Assembly (NCBI GenBank): GCA_030532405.1
Contig: JAUNLF010000003.1
Coordinates: 1-64,000, forward strand
Length of the DNA stretch: 64,000 nucleotides
Direction of reading: 5' to 3'
Source of the DNA: Actinomycetaceae bacterium
Lineage (GTDB): Bacteria; Actinomycetota; Actinomycetes; Actinomycetales; Actinomycetaceae
The notes beneath the pieces are model-generated. The model searched no databases and had not been told where the DNA came from. It saw only the letters and a program-made list of their open reading frames with translations. This document shows, in pieces, positions 1 to 64,000 of this stretch. The stretch's first letter is position 1. Each line of letters opens with the position of its first letter. The position numbers and the translations under genes were made by a program.

Positions 1-23
1 TAAAAACCAAGCTTACTAGCCAC
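1..23 (-). CDS. dmsB: Start of DMSO reductase iron-sulfur subunit (partial)
   Basis: Only the first seven codons and part of the eighth lie in the window. They read (M)ASKLGF and then TA-, probably Tyr. This fits the usual N-terminus of DmsB-type four-cluster ferredoxin subunits, where a GFY/F segment comes just before the first cysteine cluster. The GTG start follows a TAGGAGG Shine-Dalgarno that overlaps the dmsA stop codon, so the two are translationally linked. That it encodes the electron-transfer subunit is inferred from position and this short match. Confidence 0.6.
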
Positions 24-34
24 GATCAAACCTC

Positions 35-2515
35 CTAAACCCTCTCAACCTGAACGAGTGTGGTGTGCTGAGCGTTGCCCTTACCCAAGGGGGACGGGTG
101 CCACGACGTCAAGGTGTTAACCGATCCGCCAATGTCAATGCCATCCTTGTTCGGGTTAAACCACGAACCTTGGGGAACGGACACAACGCCGGGAGCGATA
201 CGACTTGTCACGCGTGCCTTAATCCTGATGCGACCGCGCCCGTTGTAAACGAGGACGAGGTCGTCGTTCTCGATTCCGCGTTCCTGCGCGTCCAGCGTGT
301 TAATCCACGCCACTTGCGGGTGTGCGTCGTCGCGCAACCAGTCGACGTTGCCGTACGAGGAGTGCGTGCGACCCTTAAAGTGGTGGCCAATGCACTGCAG
401 CGGGTATTCCGCGTTACTGCGTGCTTCCAGGGCGCCCTCCCATGTGTCAACGTGTTCGGGAAGTGCCGTTAGCTTGTCGCCGGGCAGGTTCTCGGGGAAC
501 TCCCAAGTCTTCGCCATTTCAGCAAGCTGCTGGGAGTAGATTTCGATCTTGCCAGACGGCGTATCCAACGGATTCGCCTCCGGATCCTCACGGAAGTCTG
601 CAAGTGGAATCACGGAATCGCCCTGCTTCTTCCAAATCCCCATCTCGCGTAGCTCCGTGTAAGACGGCAGGTCCGGAATGTCTTCGCGGGATGCGTCGAT
701 AGTGTACTCGCACCATTCTTCCTGCGTGCGTCCCTCCGTGAACTCTTGTTCAACTCCGAAGCGGCGCGCCAGTTCAGTGCAAACCCAGTAGATCGACTTG
801 CAATCGTAGAGGGGTTCAATCGCCTTCGACGCAACGATCGTGTATCCGAGATTGCCCGACGAGCCCTCCTTGATAACGTCCTCCTGCTCCGCGGTGGAAA
901 TGTCAGGCAGGATATAGTCCGCGTAACGCGCTGAAACCGTCATTTGAATATCGGAGACGACAATCAGCTCGGCCTTCGACTCGTCACGCAACAGTTCAAC
1001 AGTTCGGTTGATATCACCGTGTTGATTTGTGAGGGCGTTGCCGGCGTACTGCCAGATCATCTTGATCGGAACGTCCAGCTTGTCTTTACCCTGAACGCCG
1101 CCGTTGGTTGCGGTCATGCGTTCGCCGTGGTCTACGGCGTCGGTCCAGGAGAACACCGAAATCGAGGCCTTGACCGGGTTCTCGGTGGAGTTGAACGGGA
1201 ACTTCATCGGCAGGTTGAACGACGCTTCGCGCGCGCCCGTGCCGCCGCCGGGGACACCGATGTGTCCGAGCATTGCGGCCAGTGTGAATACTGCGCGCGC
1301 CTGGTTCTCACCGTTCGCGTGGCGCTGCGGGCCCCAGCCCTGCGTGACTGCGCACGGCTTTGCGGTGCCCATTTCGCGTGCCAAGCGACGAATCGTTGCC
1401 GCCGGAACGCCGGTGATGCTGGCGGCCCACTCGGGAGTCTTCTCGGTGCCGTCCTCACCCTTACCTTCAATGTATGAACGGTAAGAGGCGTTAGCAGGGG
1501 CGCCCTCGGGCATATGATCCTCATCGAATCCGACGCAATACTTGTCGAGGAATGCCTGGTCGTGCATATTTTCGGTAATGAGGACGTGCGCGATGCCGGC
1601 GACTAGTGCGGCGTCAGTGCCGGGGCGTAGCGCGATCCACTCATCGGAAAGGCCGATTGCGGAGTCGGAGTAACGCGGGTCGATAATGATCGTCCTGGTG
1701 CCGCTTTCTTTGCGGGTGCGTTGGGTTACGAAAAGTTCGCCGCCGCCGGACATCCTCGTCTCGAGCGGGTTGTTTCCGAACATCACTTGGAGTTTGGCGT
1801 TCTTCGCGTCCTCCAGGGAGTTTGACGCGACCCATCCGCCGTAGTGGTAGGGGTATGCCGCGGTGATCTGTGCCGTGGAGTAGTCGGCGTAGTGGTTTAG
1901 GTATCCGCCGAGCAGGTTCATGAGGCGCGCGAACGGTGTTTGCGCCGGCGGCCATGAGCGAGCCACGGTCGCGCCGAGTGTGCCCGTACCGTAGTTAAGG
2001 TAAATGGACTCGTTACCGTACTTGTCCAACAGTTCTTTCATCTTGTCGGCGATCTCGTCCAGAGCTTGCTCCCACGAAATCTCTTCCCACTCGCCGTCGC
2101 CGCGCATCGTTCCTTCTTTGCGCTTCAGCGGGGTCTTTAGGCGGTCGGGGTTGTAGATGCGGTGGCGGATCGACCGGCCGCGCACGCAGGCGCGGATCTG
2201 CTGGGTGCCGATCTCGTCGTCGCCGGTGCTTTCCGGCAGTACTCGGAAGATCTGCCCGTCCTTTACCTGAAGTTTCAGCGGGCAACGCGAACCGCAGTTA
2301 ACCGTGCAAGCCGACCAGACGGTGGCTTCAGCATCTTCCGCGCCCTCGGCCGCAATCGCCTGGTTGGCAAGTCCAACGCCGGGCTTGCCTGAGAAGAATG
2401 CGGGGGAGGTGGCGAGGGCAGTCGCGCCGCCGGCGACCGCGCTCCACTTTAAGAATGAGCGTCGAGACGGCCCCTTTGGGGTGTCCTGGAGCTCGTGTAG
2501 CTCGTTAACGGGCAC
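35..2515 (-). CDS. dmsA: DMSO/TMAO reductase-type molybdopterin catalytic subunit, Tat-exported
   Basis: This is the catalytic subunit of a DmsA/YnfE-type S- or N-oxide reductase, used as a terminal reductase in anaerobic respiration. The 826-residue protein starts with a twin-arginine signal (SRRSFLK at about 17-23, then a hydrophobic Ala/Gly stretch), so the folded holoenzyme is probably exported. A Cys-x3-Cys-x3-Cys motif near residues 70-78 and a fourth Cys in RACVRGR would bind the N-terminal 4Fe-4S cluster. The YSTAQI segment holds the Ser expected to ligate molybdenum, by analogy with DmsA. The C-terminus has a normal molydopterin-dinucleotide-binding domain. It starts at GTG with a strong AGGAGG upstream. 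The dmsB start follows directly, and molybdopterin genes lie on the other side. Substrate (DMSO, TMAO or other) cannot be read from the sequence. Confidence 0.93.
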   Translation of the reverse strand: MPVNELHELQDTPKGPSRRSFLKWSAVAGGATALATSPAFFSGKPGVGLANQAIAAEGAEDAEATVWSACTVNCGSRCPLKLQVKDGQIFRVLPESTGDDEIGTQQIRACVRGRSIRHRIYNPDRLKTPLKRKEGTMRGDGEWEEISWEQALDEIADKMKELLDKYGNESIYLNYGTGTLGATVARSWPPAQTPFARLMNLLGGYLNHYADYSTAQITAAYPYHYGGWVASNSLEDAKNAKLQVMFGNNPLETRMSGGGELFVTQRTRKESGTRTIIIDPRYSDSAIGLSDEWIALRPGTDAALVAGIAHVLITENMHDQAFLDKYCVGFDEDHMPEGAPANASYRSYIEGKGEDGTEKTPEWAASITGVPAATIRRLAREMGTAKPCAVTQGWGPQRHANGENQARAVFTLAAMLGHIGVPGGGTGAREASFNLPMKFPFNSTENPVKASISVFSWTDAVDHGERMTATNGGVQGKDKLDVPIKMIWQYAGNALTNQHGDINRTVELLRDESKAELIVVSDIQMTVSARYADYILPDISTAEQEDVIKEGSSGNLGYTIVASKAIEPLYDCKSIYWVCTELARRFGVEQEFTEGRTQEEWCEYTIDASREDIPDLPSYTELREMGIWKKQGDSVIPLADFREDPEANPLDTPSGKIEIYSQQLAEMAKTWEFPENLPGDKLTALPEHVDTWEGALEARSNAEYPLQCIGHHFKGRTHSSYGNVDWLRDDAHPQVAWINTLDAQERGIENDDLVLVYNGRGRIRIKARVTSRIAPGVVSVPQGSWFNPNKDGIDIGGSVNTLTSWHPSPLGKGNAQHTTLVQVERV

Positions 2516-2605
2516 AGTAAACGCCTCCTAAAATCATGAGAATTTAACCCAAAAGTATCAATAGGTTTGTTAGAACCTCCCGAATCCTTGTTAAGTCAGT
2601 GAAAA

Positions 2606-2619
2606 GTGTCGGTCGACAC
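2606..2619. promoter_or_regulatory. Operator-like palindrome between dmsA and the DUF6457-moaE genes
   Basis: GTGTCG-GT-CGACAC is a perfect 6-2-6 inverted repeat in the 251-base divergent intergenic region. Symmetry and position suggest a site for a dimeric transcription factor controlling one or both directions. No convincing -35/-10 pair was found next to it, no regulator gene is adjacent, and no clear FNR box (TTGAT-N4-ATCAA) is visible here, although an anaerobic enzyme is encoded. Confidence 0.35.
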
Positions 2620-2766
2620 ACTGTGATTTAGCGAACAGTATGCTTTTAAAAACATTGGGCATTTCTTAAATCTGGTGACGCTGTGGAAAGCTTCTCGCGA
2701 TCGAGCGAATTTGCATGAAACAGGTAGGCTTGAGTTCTGGGTGAAAACTGTTCCAAAGGAGGGCTC

Positions 2767-3072
2767 ATGAGCAAAAAGAAGGACGATCCGCAGACCATGG
2801 CGCAAATGCGCGAGTGGTTAGAGGACGCATCGAACGTACTCGGAGTTGATCCGAAGGTAGTGCTCGCGGTTGCGCAGCCGCACTTGCTTGACTTGGCTGG
2901 CGATACGGCGCGTAATACTTCGCGGCCGGGCACGCCGCCCACGGCCTTCATTGTTGGCCTGGTAGCGGGGCTTGCCGGAGGCGATTCCGACGCCCTGATC
3001 GCGAAGTCGGTGGAGTCGGTTGAAACCCTTCGCGCACACATCGCAGACAACTACAAGGGTGGCGACGAGTGA
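2767..3072 (+). CDS. DUF6457 domain protein, molybdopterin-linked
   Basis: This 101-residue acidic protein matches the small actinobacterial DUF6457 family in length and motifs: an N-terminal WLEDASNVLGVD-like segment and a central VAQPHLLDLAGDTA. In actinobacteria this domain is found alone or attached to MobA-like molybdopterin nucleotidyltransferases (family knowledge), so a role in cofactor synthesis or insertion is likely but not shown. The ATG is preceded by AAAGGAGGG. Its stop overlaps the moaE start (GTGA), which implies co-translation with moaE. Confidence 0.8.
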   Translation: MSKKKDDPQTMAQMREWLEDASNVLGVDPKVVLAVAQPHLLDLAGDTARNTSRPGTPPTAFIVGLVAGLAGGDSDALIAKSVESVETLRAHIADNYKGGDE

Positions 3073-3527
3073 GCGAAGCAGCCCGCATTATTCGCGCTGG
3101 AATCTCCTCGGACCCCGTCGACGAGCACGTAATCAGCGCTGAAGTTCAAGACGACCGCGCGGGAGCCATCGTCACGTTTACCGGCGCCGTTCGAAATCAC
3201 GACCAGGGTAGGGGAGTTACGTCCATCGAATACTCCTCCCACCCAACTGCGCCGCAAATCATGCGTGAAATCCTTACCGAAATTGGGATGCGTGAGGGCG
3301 TGCATGCCGTGTCTTGCGTTCACCGTGTCGGCCACGTGAGTGTCGGCCAAAACGCGATGGTCGCCGTGGTTGCCGCGTCGCACCGCTCGCAGGCGTTCAG
3401 TGCGGTTTCGGACTTGGTGGATGAGGTTAAGGAACGTCTGCCGGTTTGGAAGAAGCAGCACTTCCCGGACGGCTCGCACGAGTGGACGGGCATTGCCGAG
3501 CTAAAGGACGCCGACGCCAACGAGTAA
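3069..3527 (+). CDS. moaE: Molybdopterin synthase catalytic subunit MoaE
   Basis: MoaE is the large subunit of molybdopterin synthase. It transfers sulfur from the MoaD thiocarboxylate to cyclic pyranopterin monophosphate to make molybdopterin. The 152-residue length is normal. Recognisable motifs are GAIVTFTGAVRNHDQG, the HRVGHVSVGQNAMVAVVAASHR block and the lysine-containing VKERLPVWKKQHF block near the C-terminus that forms the active site. The GTG start overlaps the stop of the DUF6457 gene. Its partner moaD is encoded convergently just downstream, so the two subunits are on separate transcripts. Confidence 0.95.
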   Translation: MSEAARIIRAGISSDPVDEHVISAEVQDDRAGAIVTFTGAVRNHDQGRGVTSIEYSSHPTAPQIMREILTEIGMREGVHAVSCVHRVGHVSVGQNAMVAVVAASHRSQAFSAVSDLVDEVKERLPVWKKQHFPDGSHEWTGIAELKDADANE

Positions 3528-3560
3528 CCGGTAGCTTCAAGCACTTTTGAGAAGCGAAAA

Positions 3561-3595
3561 AGCCCGCGCATCTAGTTAACTAGTTTGCGCGGGCT
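3561..3595. terminator. Bidirectional terminator between moaE and moaD
   Basis: A perfect 10-bp stem AGCCCGCGCA/TGCGCGGGCT closes a 15-base loop. It is flanked by an A-run on the left (AAAAA) and CTTTT on the right, so it can stop transcription from both convergent genes. The loop itself contains the palindrome CTAGTTAACTAG. Confidence 0.85.
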
Positions 3596-3652
3596 AACTT
3601 TTACCCTTCTGCAAGTGGCGCGATTCCACCGCGTTTGCCGTAGCGGAGCCTT

Positions 3653-3913
3653 TTATCCTCCCGCGAACGGGGGTAGTACGTCTAGTTCCGAAATGTTTGC
3701 GGCCGAGTCGGATCTCTCAACGCGACGTCCGTGCGCCAGGAATGTTGACACGCCTAGGATCCTTGCGAGCAAGTCGTTTCCCGCGCTCACCCGGTCCAGG
3801 ACGTGCCCAACCGTTACGGGCGTGTCACCGTGCTCGCCCTCGGGATATAAAAGTTTGATGGAACTGGCACCGGCGGCCTCGGCGGCTCCGGCGAAAAAGC
3901 GAATGGTCACCAC
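3653..3913 (-). CDS. moaD: Molybdopterin synthase sulfur carrier subunit MoaD
   Basis: This is a small ubiquitin-fold sulfur carrier of 86 residues ending in Gly-Gly (PPFAGG), the residue that becomes thiocarboxylated and donates sulfur to MoaE. The start FFAGAAEAAG is typical of MoaD. The GTG start abuts the moaA stop codon (TAA-GTG) with no gap, so it is translated from the moaA message. Confidence 0.93.
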   Translation of the reverse strand: MVTIRFFAGAAEAAGASSIKLLYPEGEHGDTPVTVGHVLDRVSAGNDLLARILGVSTFLAHGRRVERSDSAANISELDVLPPFAGG

Positions 3914-4948
3914 TTAACCTCCGATTCTCGACATTGTTCGCTCTGGAGGGCGGAAATCGGGACGCGACATCCCGTGGCCCGCTTGTTTTTCCCAGGTTGC
4001 GCCGATCCAGATTTGGGCGAGTTCCTCATCCGTTGCACCATCGCGCATCGGGGTTCGCAAGTCGGTTTCCGTTGTTGCAAATAGGCAGGTGCGCATCTGG
4101 CCGTCCGCGGTTAGGCGAGCGCGGTCGCACGCGGTGCAAAACGGGTTCGTAACCGACGCGATCACGCCAACATCGCCAGCCGGATGGTCAGCGGATTCAG
4201 CAACATTCCACAGCTCGGCGGGAGCGGCACCGCGCGGCTCGGAAGACGGCGTCAACTCAAAGCGCTGCGACAAGCGATCCAAAATATCCTGTTGCGTCAG
4301 CAACTGGTCACGCCGCCAACCGTGAGCCGGGCCAAGGGGCATCTGCTCAATAAACCGCAGGTGATAGCCGTGATCCAGGCAGAAAGCCAGCAGGTCTGCG
4401 ACCTCGTCCTCATTAATCCCCTTCATCGCAACCGCATTGATCTTGATAGGGGACATTCCCGCATCCGCGGCGGCCTGAATACCGCGCAATGCGTCGTGCA
4501 AGCGGTCGCGGCGGGCGATCTGAGCGTAACGCTCCCGCGTCAGCGAATCCAGCGAAATGTTGGCCCGCGAAATCCCAGCTTCCACAAGGGACTCGGCGCG
4601 CTTATCAAGGCCCAGCCCGTTCGTCGTGATCGACATGGGTGGCGGGGTGCCCTTATGGGTGCGCAAAGTGGCGCATTCGGCGACTATATCTTCAAGGGAA
4701 CGGCGAAGCAGAGGCTCGCCACCCGTGAAACGGATTTCTTCAACACCCAGCAACTCAACAGCGATGCGAACAAGACGCACAACTTCTTCATCGGTCAGGG
4801 TGTCCTCGGTGGGTAGCCAATCCAGTCCCTCCGCAGGCATGCAATAAGCGCAACGCAGATTGCAACGGTCCGTCAAAGACACGCGAACATCGCGCGCTAC
4901 GCGGCCGTACTTATCGCGGAGCATGCCCTTGTCTGGCTCGAAATGCAT
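3914..4948 (-). CDS. moaA: GTP 3',8-cyclase MoaA
   Basis: MoaA is the radical-SAM enzyme that begins molybdenum cofactor synthesis by converting GTP to 3',8-cyclo-GTP. Of its 344 residues, CNLRCAYC (about 29-36) carries the Cys-x3-Cys-x2-Cys that binds the SAM-coordinating cluster. The C-terminal CTACDRARLTADGQMRTC segment provides the Cys-x2-Cys-x13-Cys of the second cluster that binds GTP. The FTGGEPLLR motif is also present, and the protein ends with the conserved Gly-Gly. The ATG at 4948 follows AAAGGTGAGAGG. A promoter with an embedded palindrome lies immediately upstream. Confidence 0.96.
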   Translation of the reverse strand: MHFEPDKGMLRDKYGRVARDVRVSLTDRCNLRCAYCMPAEGLDWLPTEDTLTDEEVVRLVRIAVELLGVEEIRFTGGEPLLRRSLEDIVAECATLRTHKGTPPPMSITTNGLGLDKRAESLVEAGISRANISLDSLTRERYAQIARRDRLHDALRGIQAAADAGMSPIKINAVAMKGINEDEVADLLAFCLDHGYHLRFIEQMPLGPAHGWRRDQLLTQQDILDRLSQRFELTPSSEPRGAAPAELWNVAESADHPAGDVGVIASVTNPFCTACDRARLTADGQMRTCLFATTETDLRTPMRDGATDEELAQIWIGATWEKQAGHGMSRPDFRPPERTMSRIGG

Positions 4949-4963
4949 CCTCTCACCTTTGCG

Positions 4964-4991
4964 AAAATATTCACGGATAGATCCGTGTCAA
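4964..4991 (-). promoter_or_regulatory. moaA promoter with operator-like palindrome in the spacer
   Basis: On the reverse strand there is a perfect -35 TTGACA (4986-4991), a 16-base spacer and a -10 TATTTT (4964-4969). The spacer is almost entirely the 7-2-7 inverted repeat CACGGATAGATCCGTG (4972-4987, as read on the + strand). A protein bound there would compete with RNA polymerase, so repression of moaAD is the simplest reading. The transcript leader would be very short, close to the Shine-Dalgarno. The regulator is unknown. Confidence 0.6.
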
Positions 4992-5010
4992 AGAATGTAT
5001 CCCCTAGAGT

Positions 5011-5601: not shown

Positions 5602-5659
5602 ACGATCCTCCTTCAAGCACTCACAATACTTTGTTTACCGCGGCGCCGCCGAATTCACA

Positions 5660-5747
5660 GGCCCACCAGCGGATGCGGGGAGGGCGTCTACGCACGCCGC
5701 GCAGCGTCATTCACCCGAAGGGCCCACCCGCGGATGCGGGGAGGGCG
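5660..5747 (-). CRISPR. Relict two-repeat CRISPR, type I-E-like
   Basis: Two 27-base units at 5660-5686 and 5721-5747 differ at a single position. Their start-to-start distance is 61 bases, the classical 28/29 + 32/33 type I-E period. Read on the reverse strand each unit has the short-palindrome pattern of I-E repeats (CTCCCCGC-ATC-CGCGGGTGGGCC, spoken in parts). The unit at 5660-5686, which would be the distal one, carries the mismatch in the stem, as is common for the last repeat. Only one 34-base spacer exists and no cas genes are in the window. No further unit is found 61 bases to either side. It lies in the 263-base gap between the GDSL-like gene and kgd. A chance hairpin repeat is the alternative. 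Confidence 0.5.
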
Positions 5748-5816
5748 CACACCGTCCGCTTTGCCTAACGCTTGATGCCTCCCAAGCACGCCCTCATGCA
5801 CGCAAAACAAAAGCAA

Positions 5817-5848
5817 GTGCGGGACCGGCCCCAAAGCCAGTCCCGCAC
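5817..5848 (-). terminator. Terminator of kgd
   Basis: Inverted repeat GTGCGGGAC...GTCCCGCAC with an inner GGC/GCC extension around a CCCAAA loop. It lies 17 bases past the kgd stop codon. On the reverse strand it is followed by TTGCTTTTGTTTTG, a T-rich tail. Confidence 0.75.
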
Positions 5849-5864
5849 CCGTACTTTTAATGGT

Positions 5865-9509: not shown

Positions 9510-9912
9510 CGCTCCTGCTTCCTTGGTTCGCGATCTTTTCAACGAGTCCAGTTGGTTGCTTCGATTCTGGATAATCGCGCTCTACAACTGGCTAATAGTG
9601 TAGGACGAAAGCCGCGTAATTTCGCGTGATATAGCCAGATTTTAGGAAGTTTTTGACAACCCATAATCGGCCATGGCTTAACCGTTTCCAAATGCCTACA
9701 CCCACCTAAATATGCTTTGAAATTTGCGAGGGCGGGCGAGGGGTCGGATCGGGTTGTGCGCCGACCGTGGGTGAGTGTCGCCGGGCGGGTTGAGGTGCGG
9801 CTGGCGTTAGCAGAACCACGAAACGGTACGCGCGCGGTCACTGTTTTTTGGATAAGCTGACGAGGATGAATAAAGATGAACCTCCTCGAAGTTTTAAGCC
9901 GGTGGTGAGCCG
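9510..9912. other. Divergent intergenic region, kgd / CNNM gene
   Basis: About 400 bases without a credible gene. It should hold the reverse promoter of kgd and the forward promoter of the CorC-like operon. A perfect TTGACA is at about 9653 on the + strand but the -10 17 bases later is poor. A+T-rich stretches lie at about 9580-9660, then a G+C-rich stretch with one GAGGGCG copy at about 9728. No RNA gene, repeat or terminator was recognised. Confidence 0.4.
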
Positions 9913-13422: not shown

Positions 13423-14193
13423 GTGTACCGGGTCCCACACTTTGGGCCAGCACTTGTCATAGCGCACCGCGGTGGTGCCCTGCTCGCCCCAGAAAACTCC
13501 TGGGAATCTTTTGAAAACTGCGACCGGCTGGGGTTTAACCTGGTCGAGTCAGATGCTCACTTAACTTCCGACGGCCGTGTCGTACTGATTCACGATCCCG
13601 TTTTAGAGCGCGTATCGGACGGTTTCGGACCGGTTGCTTTGCACACGTGGGATGAACTGCAGGAAGTAACTATCAACGGGTCTGCGCGCGGACCGGTTTT
13701 GCTTGAGGATGTCCTGTCGTCATTTCCGAACCTGCACCTGAACTTGGATGCTAAGGAAGAGCAGGTTTGGAAGCCAATGGTTGACGTCATTCGCGCTCAC
13801 GATGCCACCGACCGCGTGCTGATTGCGTCTTTTGATTCCGCTCGTTTGCGCCGCGTTCGCCGCTATGCGCCCGAGTTGCAAACGTCGATGGGGCAAATGG
13901 AAGTTGCGCGCCTGTTCTTAACCACGCAGACAGCAATCATCAAACGCCAAGGGCGGGTTCCGCTTCCAAAACGCGGAATCGTGGCGGCGCAGGTGCCGCT
14001 GAACTTCGGCAAGATCCCACTCGTCACAAAGCGCTTCGTAGCAACCGCCCACAGGCTTGGGGTTGCCGTACACGTGTGGACACTAAATGAGCCAGAAGAA
14101 ATCGTTACCGCCCTCGACATGGGGGTCGACGGCATCATCACAGACCACCCCGTGCTGGCAAAAGAAATCATTGAAGCGCGCGGCAGAATGTGA
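13423..14193 (+). CDS. Glycerophosphodiester phosphodiesterase
   Basis: The 256-residue GDPD-family enzyme hydrolyses glycerophosphodiesters to glycerol-3-phosphate and an alcohol. Family motifs are IAHRGGALLAPENSWESF with the catalytic His-Arg and Glu, ESDAHLTSDGRVVLIHDPVLER with the metal-binding Glu/Asp and second His, and the C-terminal VWTLNEPEEIVTALDMGVDGIITDHP. The GTG start is two bases from the M23 stop, so both are probably on one transcript. No signal peptide is seen. Confidence 0.92.
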   Translation: MYRVPHFGPALVIAHRGGALLAPENSWESFENCDRLGFNLVESDAHLTSDGRVVLIHDPVLERVSDGFGPVALHTWDELQEVTINGSARGPVLLEDVLSSFPNLHLNLDAKEEQVWKPMVDVIRAHDATDRVLIASFDSARLRRVRRYAPELQTSMGQMEVARLFLTTQTAIIKRQGRVPLPKRGIVAAQVPLNFGKIPLVTKRFVATAHRLGVAVHVWTLNEPEEIVTALDMGVDGIITDHPVLAKEIIEARGRM

Positions 14194-14228
14194 TCTTGCC
14201 CGATCCCACGCTCGCCCTCACGGCCGGT

Positions 14229-14952: not shown

Positions 14953-15001
14953 CATTTTCGAGGGCGTGCGCGGTTGACCGACCCGCGGTTGTATCGCCCG
15001 G

Positions 15002-15019
15002 GAGGGCGTTTGCGCCCTC
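15002..15019. repeat. Hairpin made of inverted GAGGGCG copies
   Basis: GAGGGCG-TTTG-CGCCCTC: two copies of the window-wide heptamer face each other and form a perfect 7-bp stem with a 4-base loop, 50 bases after rpiB. The arrangement is like uptake-signal pairs used as terminators in other bacteria, but there is no T-run. Confidence 0.5.
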
Positions 15020-20581: not shown

Positions 20582-20866
20582 AACGCTGCTCGCCCTCGTA
20601 AAATAAACGCGTTGCACACGATCTTTAATTCACTGCCATTTCCGTCCAGACAAAACTACTGATACTATTTCCAACAGGTTCCAACGAACCGCAAGCTGGC
20701 TTCGGTCAGCGTCTTTAATCTTCCATCACGTTGTTCGTGCAGGGAAGAATGTACTCACATCCTTTTGATGTTCCTTTCTTTTCTGCTTTCTTTGATGGAA
20801 ACGCTCCTGCTTATTTGAGCAGAGATTCACACGGCCACTCGATGGCATCACCAGTGAGGAAATTCG
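20582..20866 (+). promoter_or_regulatory. Long leader region of rho
   Basis: A 285-base gene-free stretch. It should contain the rho promoter (a TACTAT -10 is at 20663-20668 with a poor -35) and a leader of roughly 190 bases. Positions 20762-20796 are strongly pyrimidine-rich, of the kind Rho itself binds, so autoregulation by premature termination is possible. This is inference from known rho autoregulation; no defined structure was recognised. GTGAGGA precedes the TTG start. Confidence 0.35.
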
Positions 20867-23710: not shown

Positions 23711-24003
23711 AAGTAAAAGTTAAACGACAGCAAAACCATTCTCAACAGGTACATTCCACAGTCCGCCCATCGCCCCCGACTAACGGGCGAGTCGCGCACA
23801 GCCCTACCGCGCAAGGACTAACCCGGGAAAACCGCGCCGGACGAAGCACAAACAGCGCACCCAGCACGCCCTCAACGTGATGAAAAAGACGTTTTGAAGG
23901 TGGATAGTTCGCCTTGAACCTGGCAAAATAGATCGATGGTTCCGGTTCACCAGCACGAAAAGTGTCTGGACCCGGCATCCTCGAATTCCTTAAGGAGAAC
24001 ACC

Positions 24004-24216
24004 ATGAAACAGGGCATTCACCCCGATTACACCCCGGTGCACGTAACCTGCACCTGCGGCAATGAGTTTGATACGCGTTCGACGCTAGGCGTGGAGGAAC
24101 TCCGCGTTGACGTTTGCTCGAACTGCCACCCGTTCTACACCGGCAAACAGAAGATTATGGATACCGGTGGCCGCGTGGCACGCTTCGAAGCGCGCTACGG
24201 CAAGCGCAAGAAGTAG
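24004..24216 (+). CDS. rpmE: Ribosomal protein bL31 (zinc-binding form)
   Basis: A 70-residue large-subunit ribosomal protein. It begins [20 protein letters not shown] and carries [13 protein letters not shown], so the Cys pairs of the zinc-containing C+ type are present. The ATG at 24004 has AAGGAG eight bases upstream; an open frame extends further back without homology. A terminator-like hairpin separates it from prfA. Confidence 0.96.
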
Positions 24217-24227: not shown

Positions 24228-24264
24228 CGGCGCCGCCCTCCAAAAATTATTGGGGGTGGCGCCG
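24228..24264 (+). terminator. Terminator-like hairpin of rpmE
   Basis: CGGCGCCGCCC pairs with GGGTGGCGCCG (one G-U) around a 15-base A+T-rich loop, followed by TTTCGT. The tail is short. The hexamer TATACT at 24270-24275, just after it, is a likely -10 element of prfA. Confidence 0.6.
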
Positions 24265-24368
24265 TTTCGTATACTTTGAAAGGTGCGTGAGGGCGCCACC
24301 GCATACTCGCCCTCAAACGCCTACGACCGGTAGGTAAGCAAACAAACTTAGATGCTCGGAGGAAACGC

Positions 24369-44627: not shown

Positions 44628-44681
44628 GTAAACAAAGTGGGAGGGTGCGCCCAGCTGGGCACGCCCTCCCACTTTGTTTAC
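44628..44681. terminator. Long bidirectional terminator between the membrane-protein pair and glgB
   Basis: GTAAACAAAGTGGGAGGG pairs perfectly with CCCTCCCACTTTGTTTAC (18 bp), and an inner GCCCAG/CTGGGC palindrome fills the centre. A-rich and T-rich edges serve both directions of the convergent genes. One GAGGGCG copy (reverse) is in the right arm. Confidence 0.9.
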
Positions 44682-46873: not shown

Positions 46874-46966
46874 ATTTGCAATTCTTCCATGAAGGGATGG
46901 TCTTAGGGCGAAAACGGGAATGCCGCTTATGCCGGTTGATCACAATGTCGGGTTTACGAGGGCGTG

Positions 46967-52291: not shown

Positions 52292-52338
52292 TGGTCAAGA
52301 CTCCTTATTGCAAGATTTTTGGCGGACCATGTATATAA

Positions 52339-52360: not shown

Positions 52361-52404
52361 GATTGTTGGTTGATTCCACACTGTAGTTGGTCGTTGCAAA
52401 CCTC

Positions 52405-53520: not shown

Positions 53521-53529
53521 CTTATCGCA

Positions 53530-55818: not shown

Positions 55819-56004
55819 AAAACTAAACCACCGTTTACGTCTCGAAGGTGATTCGAGGCGCCTTATCGACATTTTGTTTATTTTGAAATGATACCTGAGC
55901 TGTGCAAAATCACAGCGATGCTGATAGTCACAGCCTTGATAACGTTTGTCACAACAGGAATTTGAATACGGCAATGTGCCTAAAATTGTGGCAATGTTAG
56001 GGCT

Positions 56005-57785: not shown

Positions 57786-57789
57786 CCGG

Positions 57790-58971: not shown

Positions 58972-59034
58972 CGCGTGTATCTGCCCGCGTAGAGCTCACT
59001 TGCGCCTGGCGTTGACGCTCTGAAGTGTTGGAAG

Positions 59035-59074
59035 AACGTGATCTGTTCCGATGTGGACGTAGATCACGTTTTTT
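59035..59074 (+). terminator. Terminator of mnmA
   Basis: AACGTGATCT and AGATCACGTT make a perfect 10-bp stem around a 16-base loop, and the right arm runs into TTTTTTC. Confidence 0.85.
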
Positions 59075-59102
59075 CAATTCACAGGTTGGCCGATTCTTTC
59101 GC

Positions 59103-59108
59103 TATACT
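59103..59108 (+). promoter_or_regulatory. -10 element of tRNA-Leu
   Basis: TATACT, eleven bases before the tRNA 5' end. The best -35 candidate TTCACA is 19 bases upstream, so only the -10 is confident. A start site would be about 4 bases before the mature tRNA. Confidence 0.5.
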
Positions 59109-59118
59109 TTTTGTCGTT

Positions 59119-59201
59119 GCCCGAGTGGCGGAATTGGTAGACGCGCCAGATTTAGGTTCTGGTGTCTTAGCGACGTGGGGGTTCAAGTCCCTTCTCGGGC
59201 A
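59119..59201 (+). tRNA. tRNA-Leu (TAG)
   Basis: An 83-base type II tRNA. The acceptor is GCCCGAG/CTCGGGC with discriminator A. The anticodon stem is CCAGA/TCTGG with loop TTTAGGT, giving anticodon TAG. A long variable arm (TGTCTTAGCGACG) and a GGTTCAAGTCC T arm are visible. It reads CUA (and related CUN) leucine codons. Confidence 0.96.
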
Positions 59202-59207
59202 CAAATC

Positions 59208-59231
59208 GCCCCGGCCTGGAAAGGCCGGGGC
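59208..59231 (+). terminator. Terminator of tRNA-Leu
   Basis: GCCCCGGCCT and AGGCCGGGGC, a perfect 10-bp stem with a 4-base loop, followed by TTTCTG, six bases after the tRNA. Confidence 0.85.
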
Positions 59232-59310
59232 TTTCTGCGTCCCACGAACCCTTCGATGCCCGCGGGGTCGAACCCGGCCCGTACACTCCGTGTCCTATCC
59301 TCCCTGTACG

Positions 59311-59403
59311 GTGGTGAAATACAGCTACTACGCGACGGCCGGCAGCCAAGTGACCGGTGAGAATCGTGTAGTGGAACTCGTGGAACAGTCTGCGAGATGT
59401 TGA
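59311..59403 (+). CDS. Possible 30-residue peptide or gene remnant
   Basis: An open frame from GTG at 59311 to TGA at 59403 would give MVKYSYYATAGSQVTGENRV and ten more residues. It lacks a Shine-Dalgarno and any recognised family. It is listed only because it lies between the tRNA-Leu terminator and an orphan gene, where remnants of an inserted element might be expected. Confidence 0.15.
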   Translation: MVKYSYYATAGSQVTGENRVVELVEQSARC

Positions 59404-59430
59404 GCGTGGAGCTAGAGGGAGGGCATTGTT

Positions 59431-59967
59431 ATGGCGCAAGCGGATGGTAAACGCCCGGGTTATGCGTCTTATCAGACGTTCTACACGTACGCTAGGGAGG
59501 ATGTGGACCGTGTTTACGACGGGTATAACCCGATCGTTAAAGGAATGGATGCTACAGAGTTCAAAATCGCACCATTCCAAGCCCTTCGCGACTACCAGTC
59601 GCGAAGCTTCTTCAGCGGTGATCCCGAGCTAGAAGTGCCAGTACTAGATGTGATTATCAGGCAGTACAAGGCTGAGGGCGGGTTCGCGCAGGCCAGTGAA
59701 TGCAGGGGGGCAGTACTGCAATGGCTAGAGCTAGAAGAACTACGCCAAACCGAAGAAGTCTACTTCGCACTGCACTACTTCGACATACTCGGAGGCCGAA
59801 TACGCAACAAAGACGAGCCAAGGTACACGGTCGACCCCTACGCCGTGTCAGAGTGGATCAAACGCGCCGAACCGGAGTTTAGTCTCATGGTTGAACGGTA
59901 CGCGCTCGCGGTGAATGCGGTGGTTAATGATGTGGCGGCGCAGTGGTATGGCGGGAGTCGTATGTAG
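59431..59967 (+). CDS. Hypothetical protein downstream of tRNA-Leu
   Basis: 178 residues, not recognised. It is soluble, acidic and aromatic-rich, with an N-terminal YASYQTFYTYAREDVDRVYDGY segment and a mostly helical prediction by eye, with no signal peptide, membrane helix or Cys pair. GGGAGGG seven bases before the ATG supports translation. It is flanked by tRNA-Leu on one side and a flavin reductase gene on the other. There is no integrase or att-like repeat. Confidence 0.65.
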   Translation: MAQADGKRPGYASYQTFYTYAREDVDRVYDGYNPIVKGMDATEFKIAPFQALRDYQSRSFFSGDPELEVPVLDVIIRQYKAEGGFAQASECRGAVLQWLELEELRQTEEVYFALHYFDILGGRIRNKDEPRYTVDPYAVSEWIKRAEPEFSLMVERYALAVNAVVNDVAAQWYGGSRM

Positions 59968-60039
59968 TTTGGCATGAGCGGTTTTTGGGTATCATGGCGA
60001 CAGAATGTGCTGGTTTACTCAAGACTTTAGAAGGCCAAA

Positions 60040-60612
60040 GTGACACGCGATATCCACCTTATTGACGAGCATTCATCTCTTGAAAACTACAAGCTTTCTA
60101 TGAGCTTGATCGTTCCGCGTCCCATCGCGTGGATTGCCACGTTTAACCAGGATGGTTCTGTAAACCTGGCTCCGTACGCACTGTTCTCGGTGGTGTGCAC
60201 TGACCCGATGATGTTGCAGTTCTCTTCGCGTTCCCCTAAAGACAGCTACCACAATGCCAAACGTGAAGGGGCCTTCACCGTCCACATCGCGACCGTTGAT
60301 CAGAAACCGCAAGTAGCCCTGACGTCGAAAGAATTCCCAGAGGGCGAATCCGAGGCCGATGCTGCGGGCATGACTTGGACGAAGGCACCTAACGTGAATG
60401 CTCCGATCCTGGACGACGCCCTGGTTGCTTTTGAGTGCGAAGTCCACTCCTTCGTAGACCTCGAGACTTCCGTGCTCACGATCGGCCGCGTGAAAGCCAT
60501 CCACACGGATCCTTCCATCATGGCGCAGGACGGCATGGCTGACTTTGCAAAACTCAACCCGCTGTCCAAGCTGGGACGCCAGCAGTGGGGCAAAACCGAA
60601 GACTTCGTGTAA
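60040..60612 (+). CDS. Flavin reductase-like / FMN-binding split-barrel protein
   Basis: 190 residues of the flavin reductase-like domain family. It has YKLSMSLIVPRPIAWIATFNQDGSVNLAPYALFSVVCTDP near the N-terminus, followed by FSSRSPKDSYHNAKREGAFTVHIA. These proteins bind FMN on a split barrel and either reduce flavins or act as oxidoreductases with unknown substrates. GTG start with AAGG upstream. Single gene. Confidence 0.88.
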   Translation: MTRDIHLIDEHSSLENYKLSMSLIVPRPIAWIATFNQDGSVNLAPYALFSVVCTDPMMLQFSSRSPKDSYHNAKREGAFTVHIATVDQKPQVALTSKEFPEGESEADAAGMTWTKAPNVNAPILDDALVAFECEVHSFVDLETSVLTIGRVKAIHTDPSIMAQDGMADFAKLNPLSKLGRQQWGKTEDFV

Positions 60613-60722
60613 ACCCGTGCCGAGCCTGTAACGGGCTACGCGCGGTTATTGGAAGTACCGCGCCTAAGAGCCCTGCGGGTGACGTAGCATGCGCATACGC
60701 TCAGCGTGGGGTTTACGCCCTC

Positions 60723-60769
60723 AAATGGCATAACGAGCTAGGCTACGCCATTTTGGGCACAATAGTGCC
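60723..60769 (+). promoter_or_regulatory. Two inverted repeats immediately upstream of bcp
   Basis: AAATGGC/GCCATTT (60723-60753) and GGCAC-AATA-GTGCC (60756-60769). The second one ends at the base before the ATG and would put the start next to a hairpin. No Shine-Dalgarno is visible between them. They may be regulatory sites or part of a leaderless promoter. Confidence 0.35.
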
Positions 60770-61243
60770 ATGGCACGTTTTGAAGAAGGACAGGAGGTTC
60801 CAGATTTCACGCTGGAATCTACCGAAGGCGAAATCAATCTTTACAGCATCATTGACGAGGCCGACAAGGGCGTCGTCGTGTACTTCTACCCGCGCGCATC
60901 CACACCCGGTTGCACGACAGAGGCATGCGATTTTCGGGATTCGCTTAGCTCACTGAAGTCATGCGGCTACACCGTGATCGGCGTGAGCCCAGACAAGATG
61001 CCCGCGCTTGAGAAGTTCCGAGACGAACAGGGCCTCAACTTTGCTTTGGCGTCCGACCCCGAAAAAACCGTAATGGAGCCGTGGGGCGCGTTTGGGGAAA
61101 AGAAAAACTACGGCAAGATCGTGCAGGGCGTTATCCGCTCAACCCTTGTTGTTGGAAAGGACCGTAAGGTCGAGCGCGCCATGTACAACGTCCGCGCGAA
61201 AGGGCACGTCGCCCGCGTGCGCAAGACCATTGGGTGTGACTAA
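60770..61243 (+). CDS. bcp: Thiol peroxidase Bcp (peroxiredoxin)
   Basis: Peroxiredoxin Q/Bcp that reduces hydroperoxides with thioredoxin as donor. The 157-residue protein has peroxidatic Cys in VYFYPRASTPGCTTEACDFRDS. The second Cys five residues on matches the resolving position of PrxQ. The start has no normal Shine-Dalgarno and is directly preceded by a hairpin. The gene ends three bases from a convergent reverse gene. Confidence 0.93.
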   Translation: MARFEEGQEVPDFTLESTEGEINLYSIIDEADKGVVVYFYPRASTPGCTTEACDFRDSLSSLKSCGYTVIGVSPDKMPALEKFRDEQGLNFALASDPEKTVMEPWGAFGEKKNYGKIVQGVIRSTLVVGKDRKVERAMYNVRAKGHVARVRKTIGCD

Positions 61244-61246
61244 ACG

Positions 61247-61762
61247 TTAAGCGTCAGTGCGGGTGCGATGGTGGCGGGCTAAGTTTTCCGCCACCCGCAC
61301 CGCCTGGCTCACGTCGCGTTCTTCGCGAAGCCAAGCCGCGGGGGACATGCCCTGCAAATCACGGTGAGCGGTAATAAACCACTTTCCAACAGCAAACGAA
61401 TCGTCAATGCATTCAAGCCGTCCGAGGACGTCAGGCAGGCCATCTAAGATCTGGTAATCCGAAGTGAGCTGCCACGTGGGATACATCCACGAGCCGCGCC
61501 CTCGCCGGACTCCTAAAATGCGGAACTCTTTAACAGCCTTGTTAATCGCCTGGCGGGAAACACCCATCAAATCAACCAAATCAGCAGTTGAACAAACTGG
61601 GCCAACCTGGTCCACAACTGACGGGCGGGGAGCGGTTAGCGCAGAAACGAGGCGAGTGACCTCATCGATCACAGCATCGTTTACATGAGTCTTCTTCGCT
61701 TTAAGAAGGCGCTGGCGCACCGCGACGAGAAGACGCTCTTCATCTGTTGACAGATGGCGCAC
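61247..61762 (-). CDS. HTH protein with a MbcA/ParS-like C-terminus
   Basis: 171 residues. A predicted helix-turn-helix lies at about 58-80 (STADLVDLMGVSRQAINKAVKEF). The C-terminal part (about 118-165, RLECIDDSFAVGKWFITAHRDLQGMSPAAWLREERDVSQAVRVAEN, given in parts) resembles the small Xre/MbcA/ParS antitoxin toxin-binding domain, with the ML-G-SPAAWL pattern. No RES-domain toxin gene adjoins it, so it may be an orphan antitoxin or a stand-alone regulator. GTG start with GAAAGGG upstream. It lies downstream of a tRNA-Lys on the same strand with no terminator between. Confidence 0.7.
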   Translation of the reverse strand: MRHLSTDEERLLVAVRQRLLKAKKTHVNDAVIDEVTRLVSALTAPRPSVVDQVGPVCSTADLVDLMGVSRQAINKAVKEFRILGVRRGRGSWMYPTWQLTSDYQILDGLPDVLGRLECIDDSFAVGKWFITAHRDLQGMSPAAWLREERDVSQAVRVAENLARHHRTRTDA

Positions 61763-61816
61763 CTGCTCAGCCCTTTCAAGATTTCATTTCACCGCAACAA
61801 GGCGATAATTACATAG

Positions 61817-61889
61817 TGCGCCGTGAGGGAATCGAACCCCCAACCCGCTGGTTAAGAGCCAGCTGCTCTGCCAATTGAGCTAACGGCGC
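61817..61889 (-). tRNA. tRNA-Lys (CTT), copy 1
   Basis: 73 bases. Acceptor GCGCCGT/ACGGCGC with discriminator A, anticodon stem GCTGG/CCAGC with loop CTCTTAA, giving anticodon CTT, and the T arm GGTTCGATTCC. It is identical, base for base, to the copy at 62063-62135. Confidence 0.96.
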
Positions 61890-61903
61890 ATTCGTTGCTT
61901 CGC

Positions 61904-61933
61904 ATAGTGTGCGTCAAAAACAACGAATGTCAG
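61904..61933 (-). promoter_or_regulatory. Promoter of tRNA-Lys copy 1
   Basis: On the reverse strand CTGACA (61928-61933), 18-base spacer, CACTAT (61904-61909), 15 bases before the tRNA. Both hexamers match the consensus in most positions. Confidence 0.5.
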
Positions 61934-62038
61934 AATACCACCGAGGTATGCCTCTGACAAACTCCAGAGATCAAGAACACAAATCAAAAAATTCGTGCTG
62001 CTTGTTGATCCTGCGAGGACGTTCTTTGCAAACAAAAA

Positions 62039-62056
62039 CCCCGACTTGCGCCGGGG
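62039..62056 (-). terminator. Terminator of tRNA-Lys copy 2
   Basis: On the reverse strand CCCCG, 8-base loop, CGGGG, then TTTTTGTTTG. Short stem with a good T-tail, directly downstream of the tRNA at 62063-62135, so the two tRNA-Lys genes are transcribed separately. Confidence 0.75.
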
Positions 62057-62062
62057 ATTTGG

Positions 62063-62135
62063 TGCGCCGTGAGGGAATCGAACCCCCAACCCGCTGGTTA
62101 AGAGCCAGCTGCTCTGCCAATTGAGCTAACGGCGC
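62063..62135 (-). tRNA. tRNA-Lys (CTT), copy 2
   Basis: Identical 73-base sequence to the gene at 61817-61889, with its own promoter and terminator. The flanking sequences differ. Confidence 0.96.
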
Positions 62136-62147
62136 GTGCAAGCAAAA

Positions 62148-62176
62148 ACTTTACGCCGAATAAACTGAAATCGCAA
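62148..62176 (-). promoter_or_regulatory. Promoter of tRNA-Lys copy 2
   Basis: On the reverse strand TTGCGA (62171-62176), 17-base spacer, TAAAGT (62148-62153), 12 bases before the tRNA. Good spacing and position. Confidence 0.6.
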
Positions 62177-62180
62177 AACG

Positions 62181-62210
62181 CTGGCATGCGCTTTACACCA
62201 CACCTATACA
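62181..62210 (+). promoter_or_regulatory. Possible promoter of the VKOR gene
   Basis: CTGGCA (62181-62186), 18-base spacer, TATACA (62205-62210), about 45 bases before the start. It overlaps the start of the divergent tRNA-Lys promoter region. Confidence 0.35.
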
Positions 62211-62255
62211 ATCAGGTCAGTAGTAGCGTGCGAGTACAACGTAAAGGAACGAACA

Positions 62256-62858
62256 GTGAACAAAGCAGCGAAGACACCCCGCAGGCACCGCCTGGGCCCA
62301 ATCAACGCGCTCGTCCTAATCATTGGCTCCGCCCTCGGACTAATCGCATCACTTGGCCTACTACAAACCGAACTAGACCACCTAAAAGACCCACTCGCAG
62401 CACTGGACTGTGACCTCAACGTACTGATCGGCTGCGGATCATCACTCATGTCGCCGCAAGCCCACCTGGTGGGCCTGCCAAACTCCGCGATAGGTGTGGC
62501 CGCATTCAGTGCGACCCTAACCCTCGGAATCCTCATGCTCCTACGCGTAGAAATGCCACCCATCGTCGGTGTACTAGCCGGCGTCGGAGCACTGGGCGGA
62601 CTCGCGTTCGTAGGCTACTTCCTATACCTGTCAGCGTCCGCTTTCCACTCGCTGTGCCCCTACTGCCTGGCAGTGTGGTCAGCAACCCTCATACTCGCCA
62701 GCGTCCTAATCCCATTCGCGCTAGCAAGCATGCCGGCATCCAAAGACTTCGGAAAATCCATGCAACGCCACACTTGGGCCGGCATGATCTCGCTACACCT
62801 GCTGGTCGTCATCATCATCCTATTCGCCATGAGCGACCAGATCGGAACCCTGTTCTAA
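62256..62858 (+). CDS. Vitamin K epoxide reductase (VKOR) family membrane protein
   Basis: 200 residues with four to five membrane helices. It has the loop cysteines in ALDCDLNVLIGCGSSLMS and the redox-active CPYC in SLCPYCLAVWS. Bacterial VKOR reoxidises a DsbA-like partner and passes electrons to quinone, so disulfide formation in exported proteins is the likely role in actinobacteria. The ATG-less GTG start follows AAAGGA. A DsbA partner is not in the window. Confidence 0.93.
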   Translation: MNKAAKTPRRHRLGPINALVLIIGSALGLIASLGLLQTELDHLKDPLAALDCDLNVLIGCGSSLMSPQAHLVGLPNSAIGVAAFSATLTLGILMLLRVEMPPIVGVLAGVGALGGLAFVGYFLYLSASAFHSLCPYCLAVWSATLILASVLIPFALASMPASKDFGKSMQRHTWAGMISLHLLVVIIILFAMSDQIGTLF

Positions 62859-62868
62859 AACGCCTACG

Positions 62869-63312
62869 CTAGTTCAACTCTGCCGAATCAATCGAGGGCG
62901 GAACATTCGCCCCCAGCCCCTGATTCTCCAGTTCGCCGCGCAATGCCTGCATAGTCGACTCCAAAGCGTCCCCGTCAGCTTCGCGCGCATTACCAAGCGC
63001 CAAATCGGCCTCCAAACGTAGCGGAATCACATGCAAATGCGTGTGAGGAACCTCGAAACCCGCAATCGTCAAACCGATGCGCTCACAGTCAAAGACCTCC
63101 AGCTGAGCTTTACCGATGCGCTGCGCGACCTTAAACAAATGCGCCGCATCATCAGCGGACAAATCCGTCCAAGCCGGGGCCGGTTCACGGGGGACTACGA
63201 GGACGTGGCCCGGACGCACCGGTTCAATAGTTGCAAACACCACGCACTTATCATCTGCGTACACGAAACGGCCCGGAATCTCACCGGCAATAATCATCTC
63301 AAAAACAGTCAT
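62869..63312 (-). CDS. HIT-family nucleotide hydrolase/transferase
   Basis: 147 residues with the histidine triad in HTHLHVIPL (His-x-His-x-His). The N-terminus MTVFEMIIAGEIPGRFVYADDKCVVF is typical of the HinT/Hit group. Likely hydrolyses AMP-lysine-type or dinucleotide substrates; the true substrate is not evident. Start ATG at 63312; the frame is open 63 bases further upstream without homology. It converges with VKOR, 10 bases apart. Confidence 0.92.
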   Translation of the reverse strand: MTVFEMIIAGEIPGRFVYADDKCVVFATIEPVRPGHVLVVPREPAPAWTDLSADDAAHLFKVAQRIGKAQLEVFDCERIGLTIAGFEVPHTHLHVIPLRLEADLALGNAREADGDALESTMQALRGELENQGLGANVPPSIDSAELN

Positions 63313-63468
63313 AACCCCATTGTGCCCGCCACGGCCACAAGATGTGCGGTGAGCGCAAAAATGCGGCCCACCCAAACACCGGGCGCGCCAAGCTTCTAGG
63401 AGTCAAGCCAAAGGCGCCCTCGTGAAATATCTACCAATGGACCGATGCGCTAAACTGCACCGATTTGC

Positions 63469-63483
63469 GGTAGTGTGACTACC
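63469..63483. promoter_or_regulatory. Small inverted repeat upstream of leuS
   Basis: GGTAGT-GTG-ACTACC, perfect 6-bp arms with a 3-base centre, 28 bases before the leuS start. TTGCGG overlaps its left edge and could be a -35. No T-box elements (such as the specifier stem or the TGGN antiterminator) were found. Confidence 0.35.
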
Positions 63484-63510
63484 GGATTTTGTACACGAAT
63501 AGAGGTCAAG

Positions 63511-64000
63511 ATGAGCAGTGAAACCGCAGCGGAAACTCCGTACCGTTACGACGCGGCTTTGGCGAATAAGATCGAAGCGCGCTGGCAAAAGCAGTGGGAG
63601 GACGAGGGCGCTTTTCGCGCCGACAACCCGGTCGGTGATCTAGCCGGGCCGCTAGCGGAAAAAGAGAAGTTCTACCTGCTCGACATGTTCCCCTACCCGT
63701 CAGGTGCGGGCCTGCACGTCGGCCACCCGCTGGGTTACATCGCGACCGACACGATCGCGCGCTACCAGCGCATGAGGAACAAGAACGTCCTCTACACGCT
63801 CGGCTTCGACGCGTTCGGCCTGCCCGCCGAACAATACGCCGTGCAAACCGGCCAGCACCCGCGCATCACAACCGACAACAACATTTCCAACATGACGCGT
63901 CAGCTGGAACGCATCGGCCTGTCCCACGACAAGCGTCGCGTGTTCGCAACCACCGACGAGGACTACGTGAAGTGGACGCAGTGGATCTTCCTGCAAATCT
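63511..64000 (+). CDS. leuS: Leucyl-tRNA synthetase, N-terminal part
   Basis: The first 163 codons only; the gene runs off the window. It begins [20 protein letters not shown]. It has the [18 protein letters not shown] segment with the HIGH-type signature HVGH at about residue 70, and continues with [20 protein letters not shown], all typical of bacterial LeuRS. ATG after AGAGG. Confidence 0.95.

Follow-up and report, generated by a model that had tools for sequence, protein, structure and literature searches.

In the 64-kb window examined here (the whole stretch of 64,000 nucleotides, from a draft Actinomycetaceae genome of 2.23 Mb, hereafter G000), the heptamer GAGGGCG or its reverse complement CGCCCTC is observed 105 times, with 53 copies on the forward and 52 on the reverse strand. 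The first copy is found at position 433 and the last ends at 63610. I suggest that this word is probably the preferred form of a putative DNA uptake signal, GAGGNCG, which would have evolved independently and would form dialects; the likeness to known systems points in this direction. One hundred dinucleotide shuffles of the window give a mean of 16.9 copies and a maximum of 32. At Markov orders 2, 3 and 4 no 7-mer of the window has a higher z score; order 3 predicts 20.1 copies (z 18.9) and order 4 predicts 41.8 (z 9.8). The coverage is fairly even, as the coefficient of variation of the spacing is 0.85, where an exponential distribution would give 1. The variant GAGGACG/CGTCCTC adds 56 further copies. 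In the whole genome GAGGGCG occurs 3,037 times (1,515 forward, 1,522 reverse), or about once per 730 bp, compared to 409 times (202 + 207) for the control, the same word read backwards. A G000 sample of 540,366 bp, consisting of the window and 27 of 30 further stretches (three repeat-bearing ones were left out), holds 654 copies, where 153 are expected at order 3 and 275 at order 4. An earlier note on this DNA had reported about 98 copies (about 48 and about 50 per strand, without bias in orientation) against a chance expectation near 16 at about 58% G+C, and had called this the most unusual pattern in the window. Expectation, rank and lack of strand bias agree with the present counts and the excess was even understated, while the computed G+C content is 59.2%. 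The note had also reasoned that a count no higher than a third-order Markov expectation would speak against a signal, and the larger sample exceeds that expectation more than fourfold.

An alternative is that GAGGGCG reflects codon and amino acid usage, as the Glu-Gly dicodon GAG GGC in a G+C-rich genome. I compared the genes with synonymous-codon shuffles, in which protein and codon pool are held constant; gene boundaries were predicted with a simple gene-calling routine that I wrote and that overlooked comEC at 5 of 16 loci (G000, G108, G141, G095, G128). The window holds 86 copies in genes, compared to 23.7 in 200 shuffles (maximum 33) and 22.1 in a repeat with 50 shuffles. As the dicodon explanation predicts, GAG GGC is in frame for 49 of these 86 copies; the shuffles, however, yield 16.4 in this frame, and the other five frames likewise exceed their expectation, with small numbers. 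In the 540,366-bp sample the genes hold 573 copies versus 173.8 (20 shuffles), and all six frames are enriched (observed/expected 266/101, 25/1.6, 36/9.7, 22/6.0, 30/13.4 and 194/42.4). Between genes there are 79 copies where 14.2 are expected, and in the window the intergenic density (2.6 per kb) is above that in coding DNA (1.5 per kb). It also agrees with the dicodon explanation that GAGGGCG stays near the shuffle level in the high-G+C genomes G106, G038 and G052 and in Streptomyces, Brevibacterium and Nocardioides. Outside the family, in a choice from the best 80 LysA-based loci listed, it does not exceed that level: 0.93x in 18 Streptomyces loci, 0.95x in two of Brevibacterium, 0.83x in three of Nocardioides, 0.61x in four of Micrococcaceae type and 0.70x in one of Cutibacterium. 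Yet no more than roughly one quarter to one third of the copies in G000 genes is accounted for by the shuffle, and codon use as their cause is refuted for G000 by the shuffles of both window and sample; I give this explanation almost no weight. The statement in the earlier note that copies occur in all reading frames and in non-coding DNA is thus correct, and the coding-frame bias which it thought might explain the word does exist, without being sufficient.

The enrichment is confined to few words. Among the 21 one-letter neighbours of GAGGGCG, GAGGACG reaches 3.74x, GAGGTCG 2.07x and GAGGCCG 2.03x, and the remaining 18 range from 0.66x to 1.26x. No change outside position 5 is clearly enriched; the word is therefore strict at six positions and tolerant at its fifth (G>A>>T,C). 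For the flanks, the three stretches L090, L114 and L122 were dropped, as an unrelated repeat array had contaminated the first logos; 21 of the 99 sites left were set aside as paired or crowded, leaving 78 solo intergenic copies. Upstream these are T-rich from -12 to -9, with R at -6 and T at -5 (58%); nearer to the core T prevails at -3 (42%) and A is present at -1 in just 3%; downstream follow G at +8, C at +9 and GG at +12/+13. A model trained on half of the sites scores +1.23 and +0.78 on the held-out halves, where eight control words range from -2.35 to -6.17; the 21 sites with GAGGACG score +0.59 and the 12 with GAGGTCG -0.13. In G000 the motif is therefore GAGGNCG, in its best form GAGGGCG and then GAGGACG, with a T-rich left arm and a GC..GG right arm. 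The earlier note had found no common flanking base, which does not hold for the intergenic copies, where position -1 is almost devoid of A and a longer pattern is present.

Intergenic copies lying within 30 bp of each other are mostly facing, with 7 facing, 3 tandem and no back-to-back pairs in G000 and 4, 0 and 0 in G080, a closed related genome. The corresponding numbers in genes are 9, 10 and 4 in G000 and 7, 3 and 2 in G080. Several of the intergenic facing pairs, such as 15002-15019 and 24289-24314 in the window, could form hairpins as judged by eye. Along the chromosome, 57% of the 479 sites in 20 stretches of G080 have leading-strand orientation (271 sites, compared to 208 of opposite orientation, the strand being assigned by the sign of the GC skew per stretch). 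As far as this closed relative shows, the earlier note was right to consider a polarised signal of the Chi type or of the type of FtsK-orienting polar sequences (KOPS) unlikely.

The four poorest of 63 segments of 10 kb in G000 form two 20-kb stretches with three GAGGGCG copies each and ordinary G+C content. Both encode relaxases and TraG/TraD coupling proteins according to Pfam (7 of the 10 proteins tested in the two stretches matched); one also has an ArdC domain, the other a FokI-type nuclease together with a C5 methylase. An endolysin-like protein was additionally recognised with PHROGs. These stretches are conjugative elements, and the motif is at shuffle level in them (5 vs. 8.4 expected). 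Rarity in recently acquired mobile DNA, a property of the DNA uptake sequences (DUS) and uptake signal sequences (USS) of other bacteria, is thus observed here on two islands. The C5 methylase adjoins the FokI-type nuclease on one of these elements, L081 (G000:C1:1-20000), on which a second, short DprA-like gene is also located (G000:C1:7713-8285).

Related words prevail in other genera. The family set comprised 151 genomes from 36 sampled genera, and 7-mers were ranked in 16 genome samples of 20-540 kb. A scan of all 151 genomes with the backward word as control is crude, and the conclusions rest on the Markov and synonymous-shuffle nulls for selected stretches. At order 3 the top word is GAGGGCG in G000, G080, G005 and G091 (it is second in G034), GAGGACG in G070 and G011, CGAGGCC/GAGGCCG in G042, GACGTCG/GACGCCG in G128, and GACGACG in G024 and G032. 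The signal in G028 and G026 is weaker and mixed, and the G+C-rich G106, G038 and G052 have no such word. At order 4 the same words lead except in G042 and G024. The dialect words are also well above the synonymous shuffle in all listed genomes except G042 (observed/expected for GAGGACG 74/25 in G070 and 34/8.3 in G011; for GACGTCG 57/15.2 in G128; 36/7.7 in G024; for GACGACG 67/12.6 in G032); in G042, GAGGCCG reaches just 71/48.1 in genes and 15/4.0 between them. A ComEC tree places the three genomes of GACG type in a single clade (97/100), without resolving the deep branches of the GAGG type. The favoured words thus behave as dialects which share a core and track the phylogeny, as those of DUS and USS do. 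An 18-kb stretch of Mobiluncus mulieris (L018) contains nine copies of GAGGCCG versus 3.8 by shuffle (maximum of 20: 7), perhaps a further dialect. An order-wide count of CGAGGGCG against the backward control in 119 genomes was high in many families; it is uninterpretable without a codon null and was not used.

Within the genus of G000 the motif has apparently been lost in some species. Against the shuffle, GAGGGCG is enriched 3.6x in G147, 3.6x in G127, 4.8x in G077 and 7.2x in G108; G120 shows GAGGACG at 4.2x (11 vs. 2.6), G095 has 1.6-1.8x for three words, and G141 has GAGGGCG at 1.18x. In 40-120 kb of the motif-poor genomes G053, G023 and G141 no other word was conspicuous as a substitute. 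These three group together in the ComEC tree (86/89, below the threshold of 95), next to G000 within the motif-bearing genus, and by this nesting a single loss would suffice. The tree lacks G147 and G120, and G119, of another genus, is in it but outside this argument. I also scored the coding copies of G000 in seven of nine relatives, where the protein is unchanged. In G147, 16 of 27 copies are kept, compared to 0.33 for all 7-mers (96th percentile of 112); the motif-poor relatives keep 7/20 in G141 (0.33), 8/32 in G053 (0.24) and 7/31 in G023 (0.24), and G095 keeps 6/26 (0.19).

With a strict word, a flank, copies on both strands, facing pairs, dialects, near-absence in some species and islands without enrichment, DUS and USS match best among the classes considered. 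The literature describes eight DUS dialects in the Neisseriaceae, with a common core, following phylogeny and with inverted pairs at terminators (Frye et al. 2013, PMC3630211), and islands that are recognisable by under-represented native DUS (PMC7371117). The present word likewise is short and genome-wide, in and between genes, and has dialects, and its intergenic facing pairs, modest in number overall, may correspond to the inverted ones; the neisserial core, however, is the unrelated CTG, the hosts are Gram-negative and the receptor is the minor type IV pilin ComP. The Pasteurellaceae USS is described as having two types and an AT-rich extension, and it resembles the word of G000 in combining a core with an AT-rich arm, in its two dialects with a common inner core and in its many copies (PMC12616744, PMC2346458). 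It differs in its unrelated sequence, its Gram-negative hosts, the position of the AT-rich arm (downstream there, upstream in G000) and its bias towards gene termini. A bias towards genome-maintenance genes has been reported for known uptake systems. The available text on Micrococcus luteus describes an actinobacterium with Flp/Tad pili, comEA and comEC, as in G000, and without a comGA-F cluster, and mentions no uptake sequence for that system (PMC6370729). A paper from 2025 characterises ComP-dependent uptake in Neisseria as an outlier within the transformable microbes and treats Haemophilus as a separate case (PMC12040237). For the Actinomycetaceae, no such word is described in the titles and abstract openings of the best-ranked matches of full-text searches, the coverage of which excludes subscription papers and bioRxiv.

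Short words can be frequent for other reasons, and HIP1 and Chi share this property with GAGGGCG; neither is known to have a comparable pattern of dialects and flanks. It is conceivable that GAGGGCG is an iterated word like HIP1, the frequency of which is maintained by DNA modification, repair or mutation bias and which has no role in uptake. Its incidence of about one per 730 bp is of the same order as that of cyanobacterial HIP1, several related words are enriched and the contrasts within one genus are strong. HIP1, however, is a palindromic octamer, GAGGGCG differs from its own reverse complement, and mutation bias hardly explains the intergenic flanks, the facing pairs and the combination of six strict positions with a tolerant one, for which reason I regard this explanation as unlikely. 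A restriction site is not favoured, because genomes generally tend to avoid sites of this kind, not to accumulate them.

A Chi-like signal, which would stop an enzyme of the RecBCD, AddAB or AdnAB type and so start repair or recombination, would fit a G-rich, asymmetric word and two conjugative islands without enrichment, and G000 encodes a UvrD/RecB-like helicase of 1,197 amino acids, every match of which is under the model cut-offs. Chi, however, has a strong orientation bias along replication, in E. coli stronger than the 57% in G080, and is not known to have flanking patterns or paired hairpins. I consider this reading improbable, and to about the same degree I doubt that the word is bound by an abundant protein of the nucleoid or of segregation (as KOPS, SlmA sites or those of nucleoid-associated proteins are) or serves as a building block of terminators. 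The fairly even coverage of the window and the intergenic facing pairs could be so explained, yet 573 of the 654 copies in the sample are located in genes, in all frames, and a housekeeping protein would be unlikely to switch words between sister genera or to lose its sites in some species. KOPS moreover have a near-complete polarity towards the terminus, for which the polarity in G080 is too weak. An uptake signal, which the earlier note had raised beside a restriction/methylation-related site and a binding site of an unknown protein, thus seems to fit best, given the related words, the islands without enrichment, the facing pairs and the weak polarity; the fit is one of likeness.

The competence genes that the earlier note had proposed to look for are found in G000, namely comEA, comEC, dprA and a Tad locus. 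This locus encodes TadA, a DUF4244 Flp pilin and proteins resembling TadB, TadE and TadF, those similar to TadE and TadF having matches just under the Pfam cut-offs. In the family, ComEC is present in 149 of 151 genomes, and the two without it are assemblies of 280 and 360 contigs. DprA and the Flp pilin are present in all 11 genomes of the genus. comEA (SLBB + HHH) directly precedes comEC in G000, G032 and the motif-poor G053, and it is also present in the motif-poor G023. T2SSE ATPases match in all 151 genomes (150 above the cut-off), and this gene was rejected as one tracking the motif. N-methyl pilins were rejected as receptor, as they occur in 3 of 151 genomes and have no match in G000. 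The loss of Tad pilins in the motif-poor G053 was rejected too, as flp is present there, at a distance of about 7.5 kb from tadA, and is followed by genes similar to tadE and tadF. The gap between tadA and flp is about 7.5 kb in both G053:C3 and G023:C3 and 1-2 kb in G000 and the motif-poor G141; in G053 the genes in between look, by eye, like those of sugar metabolism. Open frames with ComEC span about 480-600 amino acids in many of the genera that bear the motif, compared to about 700-1,600 elsewhere, and the shorter ones look as though they lacked a domain; this length is no strict match with the motif (818 amino acids in G032, 898 in G042).

If GAGGNCG is an uptake signal, a surface receptor of the competence machine would bind double-stranded DNA that bears the word, most plausibly by means of ComEA or a minor Tad pilin, from which the DNA would pass to ComEC, and DNA of close relatives would be imported and recombined preferentially. 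Repeated import, with recombination favouring word-bearing alleles, could then build up the copies to about one per 730 bp. A change in the receptor would let the favoured word drift to a new dialect, and where competence or its specificity were lost the word would decay towards background. More tentatively, and as something I would hesitate to call probable, I propose that the Actinomycetaceae have evolved by themselves a dialect-forming self-recognition for uptake, based on CGA(G/C)GNCG words and a Tad pilus or ComEA receptor, in which dialect switches mark boundaries of gene exchange between genera and one species group has lost the system. This would mean an independent origin in a Gram-positive phylum of sequence-specific uptake, otherwise known from Neisseria- and Haemophilus-type bacteria, and would suggest that Tad or ComEA represents a receptor of a new kind. 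The dialects and the near-absence within one genus would offer a comparative test of self-recognition versus a by-product of a biased receptor, and the word could be of practical use in the transformation of species that have been difficult to manipulate.

Several observations weigh against an uptake signal of this kind. The motif-poor G053, G023 and G141 retain ComEC, DprA, T2SSE ATPases and Tad pilins, so the presence of these genes does not track the motif; it fits competence in general without revealing which protein would read the word. No receptor candidate was singled out, and ComEC was not found in the motif-bearing G147 (280 contigs). G053 and G023 together keep a small excess of GAGGGCG (1.44x, 45 vs. 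31.1, above the maximum of 41 in 20 shuffles), and the named relative P. hongkongensis shows 1.47x (20 vs. 13.7, in 14.7 kb). The conservation of sites that the earlier note had proposed to examine is present in G147 and unseen in the distant motif-bearing G127 (3/12; all 7-mers 0.17) and G077 (1/12; 0.16), with few sites in each, and is thus limited to the nearest motif-bearing species. No bias towards gene ends was found in G000. The flank pattern is absent in G080, where 33 solo sites score -2.65, inside the range of the control words there, and the longer pattern may therefore be particular to the species or genus of G000. In the whole of G000, facing pairs at 1-25 bp number 34 compared to about 26 under independent placement; pairing is thus a feature of the DNA between genes and, overall, a modest one. 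The pairs in five other dialect samples are too few to judge, those in G128 being a palindrome artefact. Most dialect calls rest on 60 kb, the sample size in 13 of the 16 genomes. Finally, GACGACG/GACGTCG reach 1.0-1.7x in unrelated actinobacteria, so the GACG words rest on their larger excess in Arcanobacterium (4.2x) and g24.

The intergenic copies of the window are given in Table 1. The non-coding positions in the earlier note were right to within one or two bases (14960, 20591 and 23867, instead of 14959, 20589 and 23868).

Table 1. Intergenic GAGGGCG copies and facing pairs in the 64-kb window
Feature	Position	Strand	Basis
Intergenic copy	5680..5686	+	own gene caller
Intergenic copy	5741..5747	+	own gene caller
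Intergenic copy, GAGGGCGTGC	5789..5795	-	own gene caller, flank analysis
Intergenic copy, T-rich upstream	9728..9734	+	own gene caller
Intergenic copy, GAGGGCGAGC, between tRNA-Arg and the gene ending at 14193	14213..14219	-	
Intergenic copy, extended form TTTTCGAGGGCGTGC	14960..14966	+	own gene caller
Facing pair GAGGGCG-TTTG-CGCCCTC, located upstream of argS and flanked by genes on the + strand; hairpin possible by eye	15002..15019	.	
Intergenic copy, extended form TTTTACGAGGGCGAGC	20591..20597	-	own gene caller
Intergenic copy, GAGGGCGTGC	23867..23873	-	own gene caller
Intergenic copy after the short gene 23962-24216	24234..24240	-	
Facing pair GAGGGCG ... CGCCCTC, 12-base gap	24289..24314	.	
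Intergenic copy, GAGGGCGTGC	44662..44668	-	own gene caller
Intergenic copy, extended form TTTACGAGGGCGTGC	46958..46964	+	own gene caller
Intergenic copy	60716..60722	-	own gene caller
Intergenic copy	63415..63421	-	own gene caller
Intergenic copy	63604..63610	+	own gene caller

Ten proteins of the window were tested, with matches that include DmsA, a kgd-type oxoglutarate dehydrogenase, ArgS, LysA, Rho, AtpA, AtpD, GlgB and GlgX. The best relatives of LysA among the matches listed are those of an Actinomycetaceae metagenome-assembled genome (62%) and of Pauljensenia hongkongensis (61%). Two closely spaced tRNA-Lys(CTT) genes are located at 61816-62135 on the reverse strand. Elsewhere in G000, a direct repeat of about 84 bp (CACTTTGGGTCTGAATCA ... 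GTGAGGGGAAGTG), unrelated to GAGGGCG, forms dense intergenic arrays in L090, L114 and L122 (G000:C4:40001-80000 and G000:C9), and 74 of the 76 matches to its core in 595 kb fall within these three stretches.

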